Source: Rhabdobacter roseus (lineage in GTDB: Bacteria; Bacteroidota; Bacteroidia; Cytophagales; Spirosomataceae). Taken from it: 64,000 bases of DNA. The notes beneath the pieces are model-generated. The model made no database searches. It was not told where the DNA came from and saw only the letters and a list, made by a program, of their open reading frames with translations. The number at the start of each line of letters is the position of its first letter. Position 1 is the first letter of the stretch. The DNA is taken from assembly GCF_014202275.1 (NCBI RefSeq), contig NZ_JACHGF010000003.1, forward strand, positions 186,001 through 250,000. Reading direction: 5' to 3'. Made by a program: the position numbers and the translations under genes. Below, in pieces: positions 14,995 to 26,584 of this stretch.

Positions 14995-16404
14995 TTACTC
15001 CTCCCAGCTATCGGTACGGAAGGAGGAAGCGGGCAGGCCTTCTACGTTGTACAAATCCCCCACGACCCAGTCTTTGAAGGCGTACCGAACCGCCACCGGC
15101 TGGGGTACTTTATCGCTCTTGACCATGATCCCGTCGGCGTTGACGGTGGCTTCGGCGGGATAAAACACGCGGTCGGCCCCCGCTATTTCAAAGGCAGAGA
15201 AGGGCTTTCCGAAGGATGTAAGGCCGTTTTCGGCGTAGTCGAACAGCAGCTGAATGCGGTCGCCCTGTACGCGCATGTCACGGTAGGCGGGCCCCGAAAA
15301 CGCCAGCCCTTTCCAGCCGTAGGTTTGCGTCAGGGCCCAGTAGGCCAGGCGCTGGCTCAGCACCGATTTGTCGGCCGGATGGATCAGCCTTTCTTCGCCC
15401 ACGTCCAGGCTCACGGCCATGCCCGTCTGCGGAATGGTGCGCATGGCTTTCAGCTGCGCTTCGCGTAGGTAGGCCGACAGGTGTCGCCCGTTGGGGTAGG
15501 TATAGGGAGCCAGCTGCACGAAATAAAAGGGTAGTTCGCCCCGCCCCCAGCGGGCGCGCCAGTCTTTGATCATGGCCGCCATCTTGTCGGTATACTGGGC
15601 GTACCCGGCGCAGTTGGCCTCGCCCTGGTACCAAATAAAGCCCCGGATGCCGTAGTGGAGCAGCGGCTGAATCATGCCGTTGTAGAGTACGCCCGGGTTG
15701 CTGGGTTTGATGGCCGAGGTGTCGCTGGCCGGAATGATTTTCACCTCCGGAAAAGTACCTAAACTCCCTACGCTCATCCAGGCTTCGATGGGCGTGCCGC
15801 CCCAGGAGGTATGAATCATCCCGACGGGTACCTGCAAACTTTGCTGCAGTAGCCGCGCGTACTGGTAGCCCAGGGCGCTGAAATTCTGCGCGCTGGCGGC
15901 GGTAGATACCTCCCACTGCCCCCGGCAGGTATCCTGCGGCGTACGAATGGCGTTTCGGGCTACCGTAAAGAGCCGCAGCTGCGGATTGTTGGCTTCCAGC
16001 AGCTGGGTGTTGGAGTTTTTGATGGGTTGGTTTTTAAAACCCTTCATGGGCATGCTCATGTTCGACTGCCCAGAGCACACCCACACTTCACCGATGAGGA
16101 TGTCGGTCAGGGTGCGTTTCTCGCCGTCGCTGAGGCTTATTTCGTAGGGACCGCCCGCGGCGGGCGTTTTGACGAGTACTTTCCAGGTACCTTCGGGCGT
16201 CGATTTGACGCTGTACTTTTGGTTGTTCCAGGAGGTAATGACGGTGACGGGGGTACTTGCTTTGGCCTTGCCCCACAGCGCCACTTCCGACTGCTGCTGC
16301 AATACCATGTGGTCGCCGACGAGGGCGGGCAGGGTGATTTTTCCGAACGACGAATACGCGTAGAAAAGGAAAAGCAGGGCCGGGAAAAGTTGTTTTTTGG
16401 ACAT
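14995..16404 (-). CDS. Sialate O-acetylesterase-like SGNH hydrolase
   Basis: This is a secreted 469-aa esterase that would remove acetyl or similar ester groups from sugars so other enzymes can act. The signal peptide covers about residues 1-21. The family block GEVWVCSGQSNMSMPMKG holds the nucleophile in GQSNM (Ser114). A later block, GFIWYQGEANC, is typical of sialate O-acetylesterases, and the DxxH region is seen as ERLIHPADKSVLSQRLAYW. The N-terminal strand GDHMVLQQQSEVALWG is also conserved. It lies 123 bp downstream of a heparinase-like gene and 32 bp upstream of the sialidase-like gene. The acyl group and sugar are unknown. Confidence 0.9.
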   Translation of the reverse strand: MSKKQLFPALLFLFYAYSSFGKITLPALVGDHMVLQQQSEVALWGKAKASTPVTVITSWNNQKYSVKSTPEGTWKVLVKTPAAGGPYEISLSDGEKRTLTDILIGEVWVCSGQSNMSMPMKGFKNQPIKNSNTQLLEANNPQLRLFTVARNAIRTPQDTCRGQWEVSTAASAQNFSALGYQYARLLQQSLQVPVGMIHTSWGGTPIEAWMSVGSLGTFPEVKIIPASDTSAIKPSNPGVLYNGMIQPLLHYGIRGFIWYQGEANCAGYAQYTDKMAAMIKDWRARWGRGELPFYFVQLAPYTYPNGRHLSAYLREAQLKAMRTIPQTGMAVSLDVGEERLIHPADKSVLSQRLAYWALTQTYGWKGLAFSGPAYRDMRVQGDRIQLLFDYAENGLTSFGKPFSAFEIAGADRVFYPAEATVNADGIMVKSDKVPQPVAVRYAFKDWVVGDLYNVEGLPASSFRTDSWEE

Positions 16405-16527
16405 ACTATTTTCAGTTAAAAGGTTAGGTAGCGATAAGAGAACCGACTGGAGTTGTTTTACTTAACGGTATAGACTCCCTCTTCAAAAATCACCCTTACC
16501 TACTTTGTCTCTATCTCCCGAGGTTGC

Positions 16528-18507
16528 TCACTCCGCTATGCTAAACACAAAGCTGTGCTTTCCTTTCAGGGCTTTCCCTTTGGCGCGCATCGTGGTGCGA
16601 TACACTTTCTCGCCCCAGCTGCGGGCCAGCAGGCCGTCTTCCACCGCTTTTTCTTCCTGAACCAGCTCAAAGGCCGCCGGGTCGTATTTGAACAGAATGG
16701 TCCGCTGGGTACCCTCAGCCACCAGCCGAAGTACCCCTGCTTTGACCGCCTGCGCGGGCTGGGCGGTCATGAAATGGATTTGGAACGGCTCCTTCCAGGC
16801 TTTGAGCTCGTACGCTTCGTTCAGCGCCAAGGTACCTTCGGTGGGTTTGAAGACCAGCTCCCGCTGCCAGCGCGCTACCTCCGCTTCGGGCGGGTAGGCT
16901 CCGGCCAGGTCCAGGGAAAGTACCTGCTGATTCTTTTTCGTGCTAAATGAAGTACCCCTGGCGGCAAAGTTGCGCCCGTTTTTCTGCGGTACGCCGTTGA
17001 TGGTGGGGCAGTTGTGCCAGGCCGACTGGAAGTTCCAGATTTTCCAACGGTCGTTGTTGAAGGTTTCCTTGCGGTAGGTACTTGGGCCCAGGTCGATCAG
17101 GAACGGCTGGCCGTCCAGGTACAGCACGAAGTTGCCCACGTCGTTGTGGTTGTGGCTCTCGCCGTTGTGCCCGCCTTTGGCCCCCACAAAAAGACTTTTG
17201 GCGTCGCCCGCCCGCTGGCGCAGCGAAAGTACCTGCAGGTCGGGTAGCCAGTTTTGCGGTAGCAGCGGGGCGTGGGGCCGGATCTGCCGCAGCGCCGCCT
17301 CGGCTTCTACGTTATCCACGAAGGAATTCATGGTTTCGCGGCTGGCAAAGCCCGCCCGCCAGAGGTTGGACAGCGGGTAGCAGTAGGCCGCAAACTGGAG
17401 CAGCTGCTCGTCGTTGAAAAGCTGGCCGTAGTGGTAGATCTTGGCCGGATCGGGGGCAATAAAGGGCGTGGCGTCAGCAAAGTTGACAAACCGGCGGCCG
17501 TCGATCTGCATTTTGTGGATGTAGGTACCGATGTGATGCAGGAGCTCGTTTTTAGAGAAATCAAGCCTTCGGTTCGACACCTCCGTCAGGATGGTGAGGT
17601 AATCGCCCAGGCCGCCGCCCGCCATCGACCAGTAGCCCGGCCCTTCGTCGCAGCCGCCGTCTTCGGGGTAGTGGTTGATGAACAAATCAATGGTTCGCAT
17701 ACTTTTGTCCAGTACCTTCCGTTGCCGCTCGGCGTCGTTTTCCACGATCAGCGTCGTGATCAACGTATTTTTGTTGCAGAATACGTTCCAGTTGTTGGGC
17801 CGCTGCCGTTTCACAAAGCCCATCCACCAGAAGTCGTCGCGCTCGATGTAGGGCGTAATGACGCGGCTTTGCAGCTCGTCGTCGAGGCGGCTCAGCAGCA
17901 GGGGCGACACGCCGGAGAGCTCCTCGGGCAGCAGCAGGCGCGTCCAGGCCAGCAGGGCGGCGGTCTCGCTCACAAAGAGGTCAATCACGGGCTCGTTGTG
18001 AGCGAGACCGCCGCCCTGCTGGAGCAGGTTCAGGGTAGCGGGCACCGCCCAGGAGGTTTCTTCCAGCATGAGCCAGAGGCCGTCGGCGATCTCGGGCAAG
18101 TACCTCCCTTTACGCTCCACCAACTCCCCGATCACCAGCAGCGTGAGCTTATTACGCCGGCCAAAGTACCGGCTTTCGTACTGGTTGCGGTCGCCGGTTT
18201 GGGTGTAGAGCAGGTACTTGGAAAGCGTCAGCACCGGCCATTCGCGTTGCAGGGCTTCGTCGGCCCGGCCCAGCAGGATCTGCTTGACGCTGTCGGGTAG
18301 TTGGGCAATGTTTTTTATAAGGGACGTGCGCTTTTGTTCGCGCCAGGTACCTACGTCAAAGATATCGCCCGAGGTACTTTTCTGCTGGTACTCGCCGTAC
18401 ACGATGTTTCGCTCCGGCACCGACTGCGCCCCCACGGGCGGCCCCGCGAGCCGGATCAGGAGTAACACAGCAAGGGTGAGAAGGTACTTTGTTTTTTCAG
18501 GTACCAT
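16528..18507 (-). CDS. Heparinase II/III-like polysaccharide lyase (copy 1)
   Basis: This 659-aa secreted protein has an alpha/alpha-toroid N-terminal part and a heparinase II/III beta-sandwich domain, the fold of many uronate-cleaving lyases (heparan, alginate, chondroitin and some ulvan lyases). The signal peptide ends near PPVGAQ (28). Conserved stretches are RDDFWWMGF, NHYPEDGGCDEGPGYW (279-294) and GGHNGESHNHNDVGNF (445-460), the last with clustered His/Asn likely at the active site or metal site. It is a close paralogue of the gene at 24584. Codons for residues about 161-187 carry a perfect 27-bp inverted repeat, and a 59-bp stretch is identical to the paralogue. Confidence 0.88.
   Translation of the reverse strand: MVPEKTKYLLTLAVLLLIRLAGPPVGAQSVPERNIVYGEYQQKSTSGDIFDVGTWREQKRTSLIKNIAQLPDSVKQILLGRADEALQREWPVLTLSKYLLYTQTGDRNQYESRYFGRRNKLTLLVIGELVERKGRYLPEIADGLWLMLEETSWAVPATLNLLQQGGGLAHNEPVIDLFVSETAALLAWTRLLLPEELSGVSPLLLSRLDDELQSRVITPYIERDDFWWMGFVKRQRPNNWNVFCNKNTLITTLIVENDAERQRKVLDKSMRTIDLFINHYPEDGGCDEGPGYWSMAGGGLGDYLTILTEVSNRRLDFSKNELLHHIGTYIHKMQIDGRRFVNFADATPFIAPDPAKIYHYGQLFNDEQLLQFAAYCYPLSNLWRAGFASRETMNSFVDNVEAEAALRQIRPHAPLLPQNWLPDLQVLSLRQRAGDAKSLFVGAKGGHNGESHNHNDVGNFVLYLDGQPFLIDLGPSTYRKETFNNDRWKIWNFQSAWHNCPTINGVPQKNGRNFAARGTSFSTKKNQQVLSLDLAGAYPPEAEVARWQRELVFKPTEGTLALNEAYELKAWKEPFQIHFMTAQPAQAVKAGVLRLVAEGTQRTILFKYDPAAFELVQEEKAVEDGLLARSWGEKVYRTTMRAKGKALKGKHSFVFSIAE
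17123..17181. repeat. 59-bp stretch identical to paralogous lyase gene (copy 1)
   Basis: The 59 bases are identical to 25182-25240 in the second heparinase-like gene, including every synonymous position, while the flanking sequence differs. The stretch encodes the motif KGGHNGESHNHNDVGNFV. Identity confined to this patch fits strong selection on the motif plus recent gene conversion. Confidence 0.85.
17949..18022. repeat. Perfect 27-bp inverted repeat inside lyase gene
   Basis: Arms at 17949-17975 and 17996-18022 are exact reverse complements over 27 bp, separated by 20 bp. They lie wholly inside the coding frame of copy 1 and encode LLQQGGGLAH and FVSETAALLA on the sense strand. The paralogue at 24584 has no such symmetry at the same place (QKEGYGLPDP and TTAETAATVA). 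This is best explained by a template-switch event that made a quasi-palindrome perfect, or by a functional mRNA hairpin. Confidence 0.95.
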
Positions 18508-18538
18508 TAAAAATCCTTTCCTTAGTTTAGGCTAAAAA

Positions 18539-20683
18539 TCAATTGACAAACAACTCGTCCACGAACACCCAGGCCCGCTCGCCCCGGCGCGAATGCCAGG
18601 GGGGTAGTTTGCCCACGGGCTTGGCTACGACTTTAATATACTGAACCGTGGTGGGGTCAAACTTGCACTCAAAAGCCAGCCCCCGCACGCTCCGGGTTTC
18701 GAGCGTGGGCATGGTAGGCTGCAAAGTACCCAGTACCTTCAGTTGCTTTTCGTTAGGGCCACCCCACACCTCAATTTGCTCGGGCGGAAAAATGGAATTG
18801 CTGACCTGCCGCAGGGTACTTAGGGTAATGCTGCTGACCGCCGTGGGTTTTTCAAAATGCAGCCCCAGCACCATGGGTTCGTTGAGGTAGCCCAGCCATT
18901 GACCACTTTTATAGGAAGCTTCGCTCTTGACGCTGTCCATCAGGGTGGCGCTTCCCTGCGCCGGGTACTGCGGGTCGGGTTTGGTGATCAGCTGCAGACG
19001 CTGCGGCCTGAGCGCCGACTGAAAAAAGAAGTACTCGGCCTGGTCGCTGCCGTACCAACCCTCCTTAAATACCCGCGCTTTTAGCTGGGTATTTTTGGCA
19101 ATGGTAATGCCCGGCTTGTACACCGGCGACGACACGCTGTCGGGCTCGGAGCCGTCGGTGGTGTAGCGAATCACCGTGCCCCGGATGGCGTGCTTCAGGC
19201 GCAGCGGCACCGGACCGCTGATGATCTGCTCCTCGTTTTCGATGACCGGCGGCGTGAGCTTCAGCCGCACCGTGTCGCTCCTAAAGCCGCTCTCCCAGTG
19301 AAGGCTCGTCAGCTGTTTTTTGAGTTGGTCAAATTCCGTCGGCGGTATGTCGGTATCGGCGGCGTAGACCGTCCGTAGCGCCGGAAAGGTACTTAGCGGC
19401 CGCAGCTGCGCCGCCGTGACTTTGGTGCCCGTGAGCGAGAGCGTTTTGAGCCGGGGTACTTTTTTCAATTCCGTGAGGGTACTTCCCGTGATGGGCGTAA
19501 AGTTCAGGATCAGCCGCTCCAGGTTGGGAAACTGCGCCAGGCTTTTGACGTCTTCGTCTTTCAGCGGCATGGTACTTAGGTCCATCGCCACCACCTGCTC
19601 CCGAATGGGCTTCAGAGCCGTGATGTCCTGGGCCGAAAAACCCGCCGGATTGTAAAAATTGACCACCAACGCGGGCGAACCCGCAAAGAGGGGCGTAATG
19701 ACACGGTAGTTGGAGGTGAGCTCCCGGAGGGTACTTTCGTCGGCTACCGGAAAGTCGTAGGACGTGCCGGAGGTACCTTGCAGCCGGGCGGCGGCGTAGG
19801 CATAGAGCGGGTCGGTAGTGGGTAGTTCATGCACTTTCATGGTAAAACTCGCCCCCCGCCGAATCCAACTTTCCAGCATCAGCACTTCCGCCTCGGTGAG
19901 CTGCACTTTGCCCTTGGGCGGCATGTGTTTCTTATCGTCCAGCGGCAAATGGACCCGCCGGAGCAGCAACCCCAGATCGGCCTGGGTGGTATCCCAAAGT
20001 ACCCCGTTTTTGCCGCCTTGGGTCAGGAGCTCCGCCGTTTCCATCACGAGCTCGCCCTTGGCTTTTTGGGTACTGTGGCACGAAATGCATTTTTCTTCCA
20101 GCACGGGCTGCACCAGGTGCGTAAAAACGACGGCATCGGCCAGCGCCACCGACGGCTCTGAGCCAGACCGAAGCGGCGCAAGCACAAAATCGGCTCCGTG
20201 GGTAATGTTGCCCCCGAGGTGCCCCGTATACAGCAGTAGCCCCACCAGCCCAGCGGAAGCCAGCCGGGCCGGTACCCGCTGCGAGCGAAAGTGATTTCGA
20301 AAATGGTAGGCCGTCAGGCTCAGGAAAGAAGTACCGGCCCCGGTCCATTTGTGCCAAAATAACGCGCTGGCTTCGTAGCCTTCTTCCTGCGCCAATAGCA
20401 AGCCCACCAGGGCCGTAAGGGCAGCGGTGAAAGCGCCCAGGAGCAGGAGCTGGTCGGCCAGTTGCCGGTAAAAAGGCTCCTGGTCCTGGCGGGGGCCCAC
20501 GAGTATCCACCCGGCGTACAGTACCAGCACCACGATCGGGAAATGAAGCAGCAGCGGGTGCATACGCCCGGCCACCTGCAACCAGGCCGGAATGACCAAC
20601 CGGCTCTCCATCACGAGCAGAAACAGCAGTAGGCCGTTCAGGAAAAAGGTACTGTTATAAACGAAACTTCGAAAACGAGGCAT
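18539..20683 (-). CDS. Membrane DUF2231 / cytochrome c / leucine-rich-repeat / CHB_HEX-like chimera
   Basis: This 714-aa multidomain protein has an N-terminal membrane section of several helices (about 10-165) resembling DUF2231 (RMHPLLLHFPIVVLVLYAGW). A planctomycete-type cytochrome c domain follows, with haem motif CISCH (199-203) and likely axial Met in KHMPPKG. Next come three or four leucine-rich repeats (about 350-450: LAQFPNLERLILNFTPITG and so on) and a chitobiase C-terminal-like segment (YTTDGSEPDSVSSPVYKPG, about 490-545). The C-terminal region may be a discoidin-like sandwich. It lies 27 bp downstream of the DUF1501 gene. It probably anchors electron transfer of the module at the inner membrane with the haem in the periplasm; partners and substrate are unknown. 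Confidence 0.8.
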   Translation of the reverse strand: MPRFRSFVYNSTFFLNGLLLFLLVMESRLVIPAWLQVAGRMHPLLLHFPIVVLVLYAGWILVGPRQDQEPFYRQLADQLLLLGAFTAALTALVGLLLAQEEGYEASALFWHKWTGAGTSFLSLTAYHFRNHFRSQRVPARLASAGLVGLLLYTGHLGGNITHGADFVLAPLRSGSEPSVALADAVVFTHLVQPVLEEKCISCHSTQKAKGELVMETAELLTQGGKNGVLWDTTQADLGLLLRRVHLPLDDKKHMPPKGKVQLTEAEVLMLESWIRRGASFTMKVHELPTTDPLYAYAAARLQGTSGTSYDFPVADESTLRELTSNYRVITPLFAGSPALVVNFYNPAGFSAQDITALKPIREQVVAMDLSTMPLKDEDVKSLAQFPNLERLILNFTPITGSTLTELKKVPRLKTLSLTGTKVTAAQLRPLSTFPALRTVYAADTDIPPTEFDQLKKQLTSLHWESGFRSDTVRLKLTPPVIENEEQIISGPVPLRLKHAIRGTVIRYTTDGSEPDSVSSPVYKPGITIAKNTQLKARVFKEGWYGSDQAEYFFFQSALRPQRLQLITKPDPQYPAQGSATLMDSVKSEASYKSGQWLGYLNEPMVLGLHFEKPTAVSSITLSTLRQVSNSIFPPEQIEVWGGPNEKQLKVLGTLQPTMPTLETRSVRGLAFECKFDPTTVQYIKVVAKPVGKLPPWHSRRGERAWVFVDELFVN

Positions 20684-20710
20684 GAGGGTTTTTACGTAAC
20701 TACGCTAAAA

Positions 20711-22171
20711 TCAGGCAATGATATCGTGAACTACCTTTCCGGCTACGTCGGTGAGGCGGTAGCGACGGCCCTGGTGCTTGAAGGTCAGGCGCTCGTGATC
20801 CAGGCCCAGCAAGTGCAGGATCGTGGCGTGAAAGTCGTTGACGTGGACCGGATTCCGCGTGATGTTGTAGCCAAAGTCGTCGGTTTCGCCGTAAACGGTT
20901 CCGGGTTTGACGCCTCCGCCCGCCATCCAGACCGTAAAGCAGCGCGGGTGGTGATCACGGCCGTAGTTTTCGCGGGTGAGGGCACCCTGGCAGTAGTTGG
21001 TTCGGCCAAACTCCCCGCCCCAGATCACCAGCGTTTCGTCGAGCAGGCCGCGCTGCTTCAAGTCGGTGATAAGCGCCGCCGAAGCCTGGTCTACGTCCTG
21101 GCACTGGCCGCGGATTTCGGCGGGTAGGTTGCCGTGGCCGTCCCAGCCCTGGTGGTAGAGCTGCACGAAGCGAACGCCTTTTTCGGACAGCTTGCGCGCC
21201 AGCAGGCAGTTGGCGGCGAAAGTACCCGGATTGAGGCAGTCGGCCCCGTACATCTTCACGGTACTTTCGGGCTCGCGGCTGGTGTCCGTTACTTCGGGCA
21301 CGGCGGTTTGCATCCGGTAGGCCATTTCGTACTGCTGGATTTTGGCCGTAATCTCCGGGTCGCCGAATTCCTCGTAGGTACTTTGGTTGAGCTCGGCCAG
21401 CTTGTCCAGCATCTTGCGCCGCTCGGTCCGGTCGAGACCGTCGGGGTCATTGAGGTACAGCACCGGGTTTTCGCCGCTGCTAAACTGCACGCCCTGGTGT
21501 ACCGAGTCCAGAAACCCGTTGGTCCAGAGCTTGGAATACACTCCCTGGCCGTTGCCCTTGCCGCGCGACAGCAGCACGCAGTAGGCTGGTAGGTTTTTGT
21601 TTTCGCTGCCCAAGCCGTAGCTCAGCCAGGCACCCATGCTGGGGCGGTTGCCCACCTGCGCGCCGGTTTGGAAAAAAGTCAGGGCCGGGTCGTGGTTGAT
21701 GGCCTCGGTATGCAACGATTTGACCACGCAGAGGTCATCGACCACCCGGGCCGTGTGCGGCAAAAGCTCACTAAACCAGGCACCCGACTGGCCGTACTGT
21801 TTGAAATTAAAGATAGAACCCGCCAGCGGAAAACGGGCCTGGTTGGAGGTCATACCCGTAAGCCGCTGCCCGTCCCGAATGGAAGCAGGCAGGTCTTCGC
21901 CGTGCATTTTATTCAGCATGGGCTTGTAATCAAAGAGGTCCAGCTGCGAAGGCGCGCCGTTCTGAAACAAGTAGATAACCCGCTTGGCCCGGGGGGCAAA
22001 ATGCGCCACGCCGCGCATGAATTCGGCTTCATCGTCCTCGCTGCCCATTCCTTTAAAAAGATCAGGTACCAGCAAAGAACCCAGCGCCACACTGCCCAAA
22101 CCCAGACTGAGCTTGGATAAAAACCGGCGGCGGTTTTGATTCAGACCATAATCAAAAATCGGCTTTTCCAT
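20711..22171 (-). CDS. DUF1501 protein (sulfatase-like fold), Tat-like signal
   Basis: This 486-aa protein belongs to the DUF1501 family, which is usually encoded next to PSD1/DUF1553 cytochrome proteins. The N-terminus [20 protein letters not shown] is a twin-arginine signal. Family features are [37 protein letters not shown] and [16 protein letters not shown], then [19 protein letters not shown]. These are metal-ligand-like positions reminiscent of alkaline phosphatase or sulfatase folds. It starts 5 bp after the stop of the 22177 gene, so the two are translationally close. The biochemical activity of the family is not known to me. Confidence 0.88.
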
Positions 22172-22176
22172 ATCGG

Positions 22177-24516
22177 TTACGATTTAGTGATGGTTTCTTC
22201 CATGTTGTAAAGGGTAGTCACGACCTGCATCAGCGCGGCCAGCGCGTTTTGGTCAGGTACCTGGGCGGACGGGTACTCCCCCACGCTCAGGATTTGCTGC
22301 GCGTTCAGCTTCTTCTGCCGGAATAGCTCGCGTTGCTCCTTGAAATAGTCTTCCAGGATGGTGAGCTCGCGCTCGGTCGGGCTACGGCACACGATCCGGC
22401 GGAAAGCCTGCCGGATTTTGTCTTGCTCCGACAACGACGCCTCCGTCATGAGCTGCTGGGCCAGTACCCGCGAGGCCTCCAGTACGGTGGGGTCGTTCAT
22501 CATGACCAAGGCCTGTAGGGGCGTGTTGGTGGGCAGGCGCTTCACTTCGCACTGGTCGCGGTTGCTGGCGTCGAAGATGATCATCGACGGCGGCGGCACG
22601 GTCAGCTTAATGAAGGTATACATCCCCCGGCGGTAAAGGCTTTCCTGGTGGTCTTGCTTGTAGGCTTTAAGTTCTCCCCGGCCCGACGTAGCCGACTCCC
22701 ACAAGCCCTTGGGCTGGTAGGGCTTCACGCTCGGCCCACCGATGGTAGGTACCAGCAGCCCGCTGCTCGACAGCACCAGATCCCGCACAAACTCGGCGGG
22801 CAAACGGTAGCGCGGGCCACGCGCCAGGTAGGTATTCTCCGGGTCGGCGGCCAGTTTACCCGGATCGATGCGCGCAGACTGCCGGTAGGTGGCCGACAGC
22901 ACGACCTGCTTCACGAGTCGCTTCATGTCCCAGCCGTGCTCCATGAAGTCGACGGCCAGCCAGTCGAGCAGCTCCGGGTGTGAAGGCAGATCGCCTTGCA
23001 TCCCGAAATCACCACTGGATTTGACCAGCCCTTTTCCAAAAAATTCCTGCCACAATTGATTAACAAATACCCGCGCCGTGAGCGGATTCTCGCGACTGGT
23101 AGTCCAGGTAGCCAGGCCCAGGCGGTTGCGGGGGTACTTGGTGGTATCGAAGGGCATCACGGCTGGTAGCGGGGCGGCGCTCACTTCGCGGGAGGGCGCG
23201 TCGTACACGCCGCGGTCCAGGATGTAGGTTTTGCGCAACGTATCGCGCTCCTCCATCACCGACACGAACAGGTCGCTGGTGTCTTTCTTGTTGATGAAGC
23301 GCAGCAGGGTTTTTGCCTCCTCATCCGAGATTTTCAAAACGGGCGTTTTGGCGGGTTTGGAAGTACCTACGTCGCCCTCGTAGCCTTTCTCAGTGGTGTT
23401 GTTGAAGAAAGCATACAGCCGGTAGTAATCTTCCTGCGACACGGGGTCGTACTTGTGGTCGTGGCACTGCGCACATTCTACCGTCAGGCCCAGAATACCC
23501 TTGCTGTAGGTTTTGGTTTTGTCCAGGGTGTACTCAACGCGGTACTCCTCCGGAATCACGCCCCCCTCCTCGGTGTACTTGTGGTTACGGAAAAAACCCG
23601 TAGCTAACATTTTTTCCGTTCGCGACGAGCCGTCACCCTCCGGCAGCAGGTCACCGGCCATTTGCCAGGTCAGGAACTGGTCGTAGGGTAGGTTGCGGTT
23701 GAAGGCATGAATGACCCAGTCGCGCCAGGGCCACTGCGTCCGGATGTTATCGTCCTGGTAGCCGTAGGAGTCGGCGTAGCGGGCTACGTCCAGCCAATGA
23801 ACGGCCATTTTCTCGCCGTAGGCCGGACTTTTCAGGAGTTCGTCCACCACTTTTTCGTAGGCTTTTTCGCTTTGATCGGCCAGGAAGCGATCCATCAGGT
23901 CCAGGCTGGGCGGCAGCCCCGTCAGATCCAGGGCCACGCGTTTGAGCAAATGCTCCCGGCTGGCTTCTTCGTTCGGCTCCAGGCCCTGCTCGTCGAGCTT
24001 GGCCCCAATGAAGTAATCGATTTCGTTCTTCGCCCAGGCGGGATTAGATAGCTCGGGGAGTGGGGCTTTTTTAGGTACTTCAAAAGCCCAGTGTTTTTCG
24101 TACTTGGCTCCCTGCTCGATCCACTTTTTTACCACCGCGACCTCCTGCTCGTTGAGCAGCCCCAGGTGCGACTCCGGCGTGGGCATTTGGTAGGCGGGGT
24201 CGGTGGAGGTAATGCGCTTGTAGACTTCCGACGCTTCGGGCTTGCCTGGTACCAGTGCAAAGGCCCCCTTGGTTTCTTTCAGCGGCGCGTAGGCGGCGGT
24301 GGCTTCGTCCAGGCGCAGGCCCGCTTCGCGCTTGTTGGCATCGGGCCCGTGGCAGGCAAAGCACTTGTCCGACAGTATGGGACGCACGTGAAAATTGTAG
24401 CTGACCGTCTCGGGTACTTTCGTTTTTTGAAGTGCCCCTTTCTTCTGAAAGCAGGACGCCGCAATCACGATCGCCAATCCCAAAAAAGTACCCCATCCCG
24501 TTAATTTCCTTTTCAT
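22177..24516 (-). CDS. PSD1/DUF1549-DUF1553 planctomycete-type cytochrome c lipoprotein
   Basis: This 779-aa secreted lipoprotein has a lipobox near IVIAASC (Cys22). A cytochrome domain follows with haem motif CFACH (52-56) and YQMPTPES supplying a possible Met ligand. The DUF1549 region includes a second haem-type motif in [14 protein letters not shown] (about 345-358). The DUF1553 region contains [40 protein letters not shown] and [13 protein letters not shown]. The family is common in Planctomycetes and Verrucomicrobia near sulfatase and glycosidase genes, but its reaction is undetermined. It is the first gene of the three-gene redox module, 67 bp downstream of the second heparinase-like gene. 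Confidence 0.9.
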
Positions 24517-24583: not shown

Positions 24584-26584
24584 TCATTGTTCATTTGCTT
24601 TGAACACCAGGCTGTGTTTTCCCTTCAGGTTTTTTTGTTTGGTCCGTAGCGTCAGCCGGTACACCTGCTCGCCCCAGGCTTTGCTGAGCAGCGTATCGTC
24701 AAGTACCTTGGTCTCGCTTTGTACCGAAAATACCTTGGGGTCGTAGTGCAGGAAAAGTACCTTGGTGCTGTTTTGGCTCACGAGCCTGACCACCCCCTCC
24801 TTCACTACCTGGGTAGGTTGAGCCGTAATAAAATTTAAATCAACGGGTTGCTTCCACTCCTGAAGTATATACTCTTCCTCCAAGGCAACGGACCCGCGTT
24901 TGGGATCAAAAATAAATTCCCGTTTCCAGCGGTTCACCTGCGCCTCCTCCGGATAAGTACCCGCCAGATCCATCGAGAAATGCATCCGGCCGTTCTTGCG
25001 GGTGTAGGTCGTTTCTTTGGCGGCAAATTTGCGGCCGTTCTTTTGCGGCACGCCGTTGATCAAGGGGCAGTTGTGCCAGATCGACTGAAAATTCCAAATG
25101 TTCCAGCGTTCGTCGGTGAAGGTTTCTCGGCGGTAAGTAGCCGGGCCCAGGTCAATCACGACGGGGTCACCGTCGAGGTAGAGCACGAAGTTGCCCACGT
25201 CGTTGTGGTTGTGGCTCTCGCCGTTGTGCCCGCCTTTGGCTCCCAGAAACAAGCCCTTAGCACTACCCTCTTGTTGCCGTAGCGCCAGTACCTGTAAATC
25301 GGGTAGCCAGCTTTCCTGCCTCAGCGGTGCCTTGGGCTCCAGCGCCCGCAGTTCACTTTCTACCTGGAGATTATTAAAAAAGGAAGTCATTTCTCGGTTC
25401 AGGTAGCCGTTGCTCAAACCGGGTGTAATGCTGCGACAATAGGCCGCAAATTGCTTGAGCTTCTCATCGTTAAACAGCCGCCCATAAGCATATACCCGCG
25501 CCGGATCGGGTACGTGGAAAGGCCCGGCGTCGGCAAAGTTGACCACGCGGTTGCTATCTACGTGCATTTTATAAATGTAGGACCCAATCCGGTGAATGAG
25601 CTCGTTCTTCGAGAAATCCAGCCGCTGATCCGAAACTGCCGTGAGCAGCTCCATGTACTGACCCAGCGCACCACCGGCCACCGCCCAGTAGGTGGGACCT
25701 TCGTCGCAGCCGCCGTCTTCGGGGTAGTCGTTAAGGAAGAAGTCGGTACTTTTAATATTCTTTTCAATGAGCGGGCGGCGCCGGGTTTCGTCGTTCAGTG
25801 CCAGTACGGTCGTCACCAACACGTTGGAGTTGATCCAGACGTTCCAGTTGTTGACCCGGCGGCCCGAGAAGCCCATCCACCAAAAATCGTCGCGCTCCAG
25901 GTAGGGTGTAAAGATGCGCCGATCAAGCTCGTGAAGTACCTTTTTGGGCAGGATGGGCGATACCTTCGTGAGCTCCTCTTGCAGCAGAAAGTACGCCCAA
26001 GCCACCGTCGCGGCGGTTTCGGCGGTTGTTAAGTCAATGATTGGCTCGGTAGGATCGGGCAGGCCGTACCCCTCTTTCTGGATGTACAGAAAAGCCGGAA
26101 ACGACCAGGTACTTTCTTCCAGCGTCAGCCACAGGCCGTTGGCGATTTCGGGCAGGTAGGTACCTTGCTGCTCCACCAGCTCGCCCAGCACCAGGTTGAT
26201 CAGCTTCCGGCGGCGCTGCCATACTTGCCCCTCGTAGTTGCTGCGGTTGCCGTTTTCGGTAAACTCCAGAAAGCTCGTCATGGGCAAGACGTTCCACTCC
26301 TTGCCCAGCGCTTCCTGCGCCTGACTCACCAGCTTCGCCCGTACTTCCGGCGACAAAGCCGCCAGCTTTTGCTTTACTGATTCCTTTTTGGTTTTTCGCC
26401 AGCCTTCTACGTCCAGCACGGGGGTCGTTTGGCTTTGCCGCTGGTACTCCTGGTAGAGGTAGTTGCGGTGGCTACGATTTGTCGCCGCTACCTGCCCGAA
26501 GGTACCTATACAGGTACCTAAAAGACAAATAATAAAAAGCGTGGCAAACGAATGGGTACTTTTATAAGGGTTAAATTGCATCAT
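24584..26584 (-). CDS. Heparinase II/III-like polysaccharide lyase (copy 2)
   Basis: This 666-aa secreted lyase-fold protein is clearly homologous along its length to the gene at 16528 (shared RDDFWWMGFSGRR, NDYPEDGGCDEGPTYW, GGHNGESHNHNDVGNF). It likely acts on a uronate-containing polymer by beta-elimination. Its signal peptide (FNPYKSTHSFATLF..CLLGTC) is unlike that of its paralogue. Instead it resembles the leader of the GH36-like gene at 28607, so the leader has been exchanged or duplicated separately from the enzyme body. Start may be ATG 26584 or the next codon, 26581. It is the first gene of the array running down to 6070. Confidence 0.88.
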   Translation of the reverse strand: MMQFNPYKSTHSFATLFIICLLGTCIGTFGQVAATNRSHRNYLYQEYQRQSQTTPVLDVEGWRKTKKESVKQKLAALSPEVRAKLVSQAQEALGKEWNVLPMTSFLEFTENGNRSNYEGQVWQRRRKLINLVLGELVEQQGTYLPEIANGLWLTLEESTWSFPAFLYIQKEGYGLPDPTEPIIDLTTAETAATVAWAYFLLQEELTKVSPILPKKVLHELDRRIFTPYLERDDFWWMGFSGRRVNNWNVWINSNVLVTTVLALNDETRRRPLIEKNIKSTDFFLNDYPEDGGCDEGPTYWAVAGGALGQYMELLTAVSDQRLDFSKNELIHRIGSYIYKMHVDSNRVVNFADAGPFHVPDPARVYAYGRLFNDEKLKQFAAYCRSITPGLSNGYLNREMTSFFNNLQVESELRALEPKAPLRQESWLPDLQVLALRQQEGSAKGLFLGAKGGHNGESHNHNDVGNFVLYLDGDPVVIDLGPATYRRETFTDERWNIWNFQSIWHNCPLINGVPQKNGRKFAAKETTYTRKNGRMHFSMDLAGTYPEEAQVNRWKREFIFDPKRGSVALEEEYILQEWKQPVDLNFITAQPTQVVKEGVVRLVSQNSTKVLFLHYDPKVFSVQSETKVLDDTLLSKAWGEQVYRLTLRTKQKNLKGKHSLVFKANEQ
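25182..25240. repeat. 59-bp stretch identical to paralogous lyase gene (copy 2)
   Basis: This is the partner of 17123-17181. It lies over the GGHNGESHNHNDVGNF codons of the second lyase. Flanking codons diverge on both sides. Confidence 0.85.

Follow-up and report, generated by a model that had tools for sequence, protein, structure and literature searches.

A perfect 27-bp inverted repeat within a heparinase II/III-like gene of Rhabdobacter roseus, a probable scar of replication template switching

Introduction

Quasi-palindrome template switching is established in E. coli, where a thyA hot spot and lacZ reporters containing an 18-bp quasi-palindrome have been described (PMC7202029). In yeast genes, the longest arm homogenized by a template switch measured 16 bp and was found in one gene, for which no significance was determined. 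The yeast arm events replaced one or two residues, or up to five per gene when spacer inversions are counted too, and such clusters of amino-acid changes can mimic positive selection (PMC8604942). Perfect coding palindromes of up to 284 bp are numerous in the mitochondrial genes of nematomorphs, for whose origin template switching and repeat conversion have both been considered; the same paper presents the palindromic elements of Rickettsia as transposable insertions (PMC6649704). Two studies provide a bacterial background. An E. coli study reports comparatively few repeats within ORFs (arm of at least 8 bp, spacer of at most 8 nt; PMC6060812), and a survey of bacterial inverted repeats considered arms between 6 and 30 bp long with a spacer of 0-10 nt (PMC10434271), so that a 27-bp repeat with a 20-nt spacer would escape it.

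The repeat presented here lies in a lyase gene of Rhabdobacter roseus, in a window (the whole stretch of DNA analysed, 64,000 nucleotides) that corresponds to bases 186001-250000 of a 977-kb contig; the draft genome totals 6.9 Mb in 27 contigs. As in E. coli, arm-to-arm copying would have perfected a formerly imperfect inverted repeat within a bacterial gene; unlike the E. coli cases, which are observed mutations in shorter repeats, the lyase-gene repeat is known from its product alone, has arms of 27-31 bp and entails the replacement of several residues (PMC7202029). It shares with the yeast cases a perfect coding inverted repeat with clustered substitutions and amino-acid replacements, but it reaches 27 bp where the yeast maximum is 16 bp, with about five rare residues and one residue lost (PMC8604942). 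Like the nematomorph palindromes, it is a perfect inverted repeat within coding sequence; whereas those are many and conserved in both arms, here there is one, and conserved residues have been lost from one arm (PMC6649704). An in-frame palindrome in a bacterial gene also recalls the Rickettsia elements but, unlike these transposable insertions, the lyase-gene repeat is single-copy and adds no residues (PMC6649704). The kind of mutation is already known, and the arm length exceeds the 16-bp maximum given in the yeast coding survey (PMC8604942). The locus clearly qualifies as a candidate for a large template switch, one that would have exchanged a whole block of residues in a bacterial protein at a single stroke.

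Geometry of the repeat and its host gene

The preliminary description had reported an exact 27-bp inverted repeat inside the lyase gene, and this is borne out: the arms are reverse-complementary at 27 of 27 positions, are separated by a 20-nt spacer and lie wholly within the lyase frame. The features concerned are the following (window coordinates).

16528..18507, minus strand: host gene, heparinase II/III-like, 659 aa (Hepar_II_III_C, PF07940)
17949..18022, minus strand: full hairpin, arms extended to 31 bp (30/31 paired), 12-nt loop, from the repeat search
17996..18022, minus strand: gene-sense 5' arm, 27 bp, coding for QQGGGLAH (residues 163-170) plus partial codons at either end
17976..17995, minus strand: 20-nt spacer between the perfect arms, coding for EPVIDL plus partial codons at either end; family-like, not inverted
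17949..17975, minus strand: gene-sense 3' arm, 27 bp, coding for VSETAALL (residues 179-186) plus partial codons at either end
24584..26584, minus strand: paralogue, 55% identity, without the repeat (9/27 position pairs complementary)

With one mismatch allowed, the repeat search extends the arms to 17949-17979 and 17992-18022, which are 97% complementary with 12 nt between them. The arms pair codon against codon, codon position 1 facing position 3 and position 2 facing position 2, which corresponds to phase 2 in the scheme of the nematomorph study (PMC6649704). The RNA-sense strand of the hairpin has a predicted folding energy of -68.1 kcal/mol, against -31.8 +/- 3.3 kcal/mol for 200 shuffles (z -11.1). 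The arm sequence is single-copy, since only the two arms match in the 6.9-Mb genome even when up to 3 mismatches are allowed.

The host protein scores 49.4 bits against PF07940, for which the curated cut-off is 24, and solved structures similar to it in sequence include 8r75, 8r6z, 8r73 and 8r70 (E about 1e-104 to 1e-106). The first of these is a solved heparinase-like protein, matched at E 7.9e-106.

Comparable repeats in the genome and in control loci

Chance is excluded as the source of a repeat of this length. The 977-kb contig holds 108 perfect inverted repeats with an arm of at least 12 bp and a loop of at most 100 nt, and the 27-bp lyase-gene repeat is the longest of them. Genes were called with our own codon-usage ORF script and not taken from a standard annotation (654 genes, 82% of this contig); on these calls, 14 repeats are wholly genic, 13 share part of their length with a gene and the other 81 are intergenic. 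The wholly genic arms measure 12 bp (seven repeats), 13 bp (five), 14 bp (one) and 27 bp (one). A second contig of 220 kb has 23 repeats, one wholly genic (13 bp) and three partly overlapping a gene, so that in the 1.2 Mb of genome examined the 27-bp repeat is the only one above 14 bp that lies wholly within a called gene. Under the same limits on arm and loop, no perfect repeat above 14 bp turned up in five copies of the 977-kb contig generated by a second-order Markov model. When mismatches are tolerated and the loop is limited to 60 nt, the lyase-gene repeat scores 28 and the next coding repeat of the contig 14. Finally, among 80 control loci from other genomes (819,019 bases, scored with stop-to-stop frames), the longest repeat wholly within an open frame has an arm of 17 bp, and outside open frames one repeat reaches 28 bp.

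Which arm changed

The two arms were compared with the protein family in an alignment built from 110 tblastn segments (loci L001-L115), from which 107 distinct reading frames spanning residues 150-195 were kept. All but one of these, 106 frames, are other than the host gene, three of them coming from the same genome; gapped alignment columns have smaller denominators (95, 101 or 90). At the upstream arm the family pattern is roughly K-x-G-x-G-L-P-D, where the host gene has QQGGGLAH. Ala169 occurs in 2/106 relatives, 94 of which have Pro, and His170 in none of the 106, 91 of which have Asp; the next column is a gap in the host protein. Gln163 (1/95), Gln164 (3/95) and Gly166 (3/101) are also rare, and the flanking Leu162 is found in 0/95 relatives, though its third base alone falls within the arm. 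The downstream arm carries mostly family residues: Glu181 in 76/106, Thr182 in 84/106, Ala183 in 51/106, Leu185 in 57/106 and Leu186 in 91/106. The exceptions are Val179 (8/106) and Ser180 (1/106, with Ala in 83 and Gly in 20). Because these two residues of the presumed template arm are rare, a partial copy in the opposite direction or earlier changes are possible; judged from its residues, Ser180 shows that this arm, too, changed at some time.

The arms were also scored against a profile of the family. It was built with the relatives that were scored against it, the host protein and the paralogue being left out. The upstream arm obtains 1.6 of a possible 22.1 bits, a score as low being found in 2/90 relatives, and the downstream arm 12.5 of 21.0 bits, which 17/106 relatives match or fall below. 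Over the same columns the paralogue scores 17.5 (upstream) and 9.3 (downstream), and 3.4% of host-protein windows show a profile deficit at least as large as that of the upstream arm. When the paralogue alone is the reference, the upstream arm is not an outlier: 12/24 of its bases are identical, with 23% of windows as low or lower, and the downstream arm has 14/24 identical bases. The host protein is one residue shorter at the repeat than most aligned relatives, and there is no net insertion. Since loop length varies among the relatives, 11/106 having no residues aligned to positions 161-164 and four further loci carrying 8 additional residues, the placement of the gap is uncertain.

It had been proposed earlier that the paralogue keeps the amino-acid pattern of both places without the symmetry. 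The symmetry is indeed absent and the paralogue keeps the family pattern upstream (QKEGYGLPD), but the host gene departs from it, with LAH for LPD and one residue missing.

Codon choice and the structural model add to this picture. All eight codons 179-186 are the commonest synonyms in the long ORFs of the contig, and among codons 163-170 GGT, CTC and GCT are not. In the AlphaFold model (mean pLDDT 90), residues 160-176 form a coil and 177-192 a helix; the block 161-170 has a pLDDT of 61 and the block 181-190 of 97, although the loop may owe some of its low confidence to its divergence from the alignment. Family residues, codon choice and the AlphaFold model, which are not fully independent of each other, favour the upstream, loop-coding arm (17996-18022) as the one rewritten from 17949-17975.

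Relatives and complementarity before the event

Close orthologues were sought at several levels. Across 59 genomes including its own, the host gene has no relative nearer than the 55% paralogue; a search of the genus covered its own genome only. A family-level search of 222 genomes, again including its own (matches at E of at most 1e-130), also gave nothing closer. In a scan of genome contigs, which may omit records very near the window's genome, 126 stretches matched a pattern, 116 were confirmed and 80 kept, the best of the 80 kept being 41% identical. After the paralogue, the next relatives stand at about 41-42% identity.

In the register of the arms, 104 relatives show a mean complementarity of 0.34, against 0.22-0.28 in six slid registers, which is a weak excess; the best relative pairs at 15/27 positions and the paralogue at 9/27. 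A conserved Gly-Leu facing a conserved Glu-Thr would yield such a slight excess. One relative, L087 from an Anaerolineae metagenome genome, has GGT CTC in the one place and GAG ACC in the other, a 6-bp match, and pairing of this type is suggested by the sequences as a candidate seed for the fold-back.

Proposed event

The repeat is best read as the scar of a replication template switch, that is, of quasi-palindrome correction in coding DNA, to which we assign a probability of roughly 0.8. Because the nearest relative found is the 55% paralogue, we infer the event rather than observe it, and the same applies to its direction and seed, to its recency and to its having taken a single step. The two stretches would at first have been complementary in part. 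The conserved Gly-Leu of the upstream loop lies codon for codon opposite the conserved Glu-Thr of the downstream helix, and their codons (GGT CTC and GAG ACC), which can pair, may have seeded a fold-back. During replication the nascent strand would have paired with the other arm, whether that arm lay in the nascent strand itself or in its sister. The other arm would then have served as template for some 27-30 nt, before a return to the proper template about 3 nt further on. Two such switches would replace one arm and keep the spacer uninverted, so that the upstream arm came to mirror the downstream arm exactly, as its reverse complement. The family Pro-Asp would have been among several loop residues replaced, with a net loss of one codon, the frame being kept. 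Inversion of the spacer, the other product of template switching, is rejected, as the spacer residues EPVIDL are family-like.

The age of the event can be bounded at less than about 0.19 substitutions per site by a simple exponential, given that no pair is broken among some 16 third positions in the two arms; the bound treats third positions as free to vary, and ongoing correction would void it. The change would have been viable since it fell on a tolerant loop, encoded by the overwritten arm, and spared the core helix encoded by the template arm. This suggests a survival filter, in which an arm coding for a tolerant loop is overwritten with an arm coding for a core helix as template, for which one example is an illustration and not a general result.

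Alternative explanations

The earlier reading had offered template-switch correction or a selected mRNA hairpin, and named a sequencing or assembly artefact as a third option. The first is the best supported, and the sole support for the mRNA hairpin is the strength of its predicted fold. Selection would act on the hairpin as an mRNA or cruciform-DNA element, for instance as an RNase III site or by slowing ribosomes, and could set the output of the gene relative to its neighbours. The great stability of the predicted fold (-68.1 kcal/mol, z -11.1), the perfect arms without decay and the position within a run of same-strand open frames, assumed to form a single transcript, are all compatible with such a role. 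Against it, a scan of 16400-20800 with Rfam gave no family at gathering score, and near-invariant residues were lost to the change. Moreover, at the positions aligned with the arms the paralogue is complementary at 9 and no relative at more than 15 of 27, hairpins of relatives outside this aligned register being covered solely by the repeat scan of the control loci. Selection for the hairpin is consequently an unlikely origin of the repeat. A related proposal has little probability, namely that recurrent copying between the arms maintains the palindrome in its perfect state, or that the mRNA uses it as a double-stranded processing site; were it so, a copying accident would have made a new regulatory hairpin inside a reading frame in one step.

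Fold-back chimeras normally continue in the reverse direction. A sequencing or assembly artefact of this kind, mimicking one arm from the other, could be imagined in a draft assembly of 27 contigs, on a contig that contains 99 undetermined bases. However, both flanks continue the gene in frame with family sequence where a chimera would run on backwards, so that an artefact would need two precise junctions. The 74-bp structure would also fit within one ordinary read, and the site lies well inside the 977-kb contig. An artefact is accordingly improbable.

The repeat could also have arisen gradually, by a coincidence of codon choices under protein constraint and with no copying event. The slight register excess of the relatives (0.34 versus 0.22-0.28) is what speaks for this, but the repeat counts speak against it: no other wholly genic repeat exceeds 14 bp in 1.2 Mb of genome, none exceeds 17 bp in the open frames of the 819-kb control loci, and the Markov sequences (5 x 977 kb) contain none beyond 14 bp. 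In addition, the rare residues of the 5' arm fall at codons that are fixed by complementarity to the 3' arm, and gradual coincidence is very improbable. Finally, a mobile palindromic element of the Rickettsia type inserted in frame, although it would have just this appearance of an in-frame palindrome within coding sequence, is rejected with near certainty, given that there is no net insertion (the protein has one residue fewer) and that the arm is single-copy with up to 3 mismatches in 6.9 Mb.

Other features of the locus and genome

Besides the repeat, the lyase locus has a distinctive gene content. A Pfam scan of eight neighbours identified two sulfatases, a BNR-repeat protein, a SASA esterase and three genes of the PSCyt1/PSCyt2/PSD1/DUF1501 type, one neighbour being matchless. 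The three genes with PSCyt1, PSCyt2, PSD1 and DUF1501 occupy 18539-24516, between the lyase paralogues, in a locus with sulfatases; the PSCyt1 domain is named after Planctomycetes. From this domain content, the lyase/sulfatase/PSCyt locus is possibly an acquired sulfated-polysaccharide locus. At residue 158 (window 18034-18036), 102/106 aligned relatives have the His of a PAH motif, the host gene has Thr and the paralogue Phe, and activity or specificity may be altered in both lyase copies, given the lost histidine.

Some other repeats deserve mention. The longest perfect repeats within open frames of the control loci are those at L104:2635-2670 and L089:2760-2803, with arms of 17 and 16 bp, respectively. 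In the R. roseus genome, hairpins with arms close to GCGTGCCGTTAGGTACGCAAC recur (L122:18846-18899, L170:11463-11517 and L172:3386-3438); at least three copies are present in 1.2 Mb, none wholly within a called gene, and they look like a repeated palindromic element.

The genome also carries an iterated heptamer, AAGTACC/GGTACTT. It occurs 2347 times in the 977-kb contig, where 107 copies are expected from dinucleotides (an excess of about 22-fold), which amounts to about one per 415 bases, with 165 copies in the window. Copies are found on both strands, in intergenic and genic DNA, and in all three codon frames. The 9-mer AAAGTACCY has 6621 copies genome-wide, against 170 for a backwards control; among 38 other genomes, 34 have fewer than 310, the exceptions having 1621, 734, 593 and 428. 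A text search of the available part of PMC4390886, which concerns the cyanobacterial highly iterated palindrome HIP1, found no mention of Bacteroidetes or GGTACC, and no literature joining "highly iterated palindrome" with Bacteroidetes was found on that single pairing of terms. By analogy, the iteration of AAGTACC looks like a lineage-specific counterpart of HIP1 (PMC4390886), and it may be more unusual than the palindrome itself.
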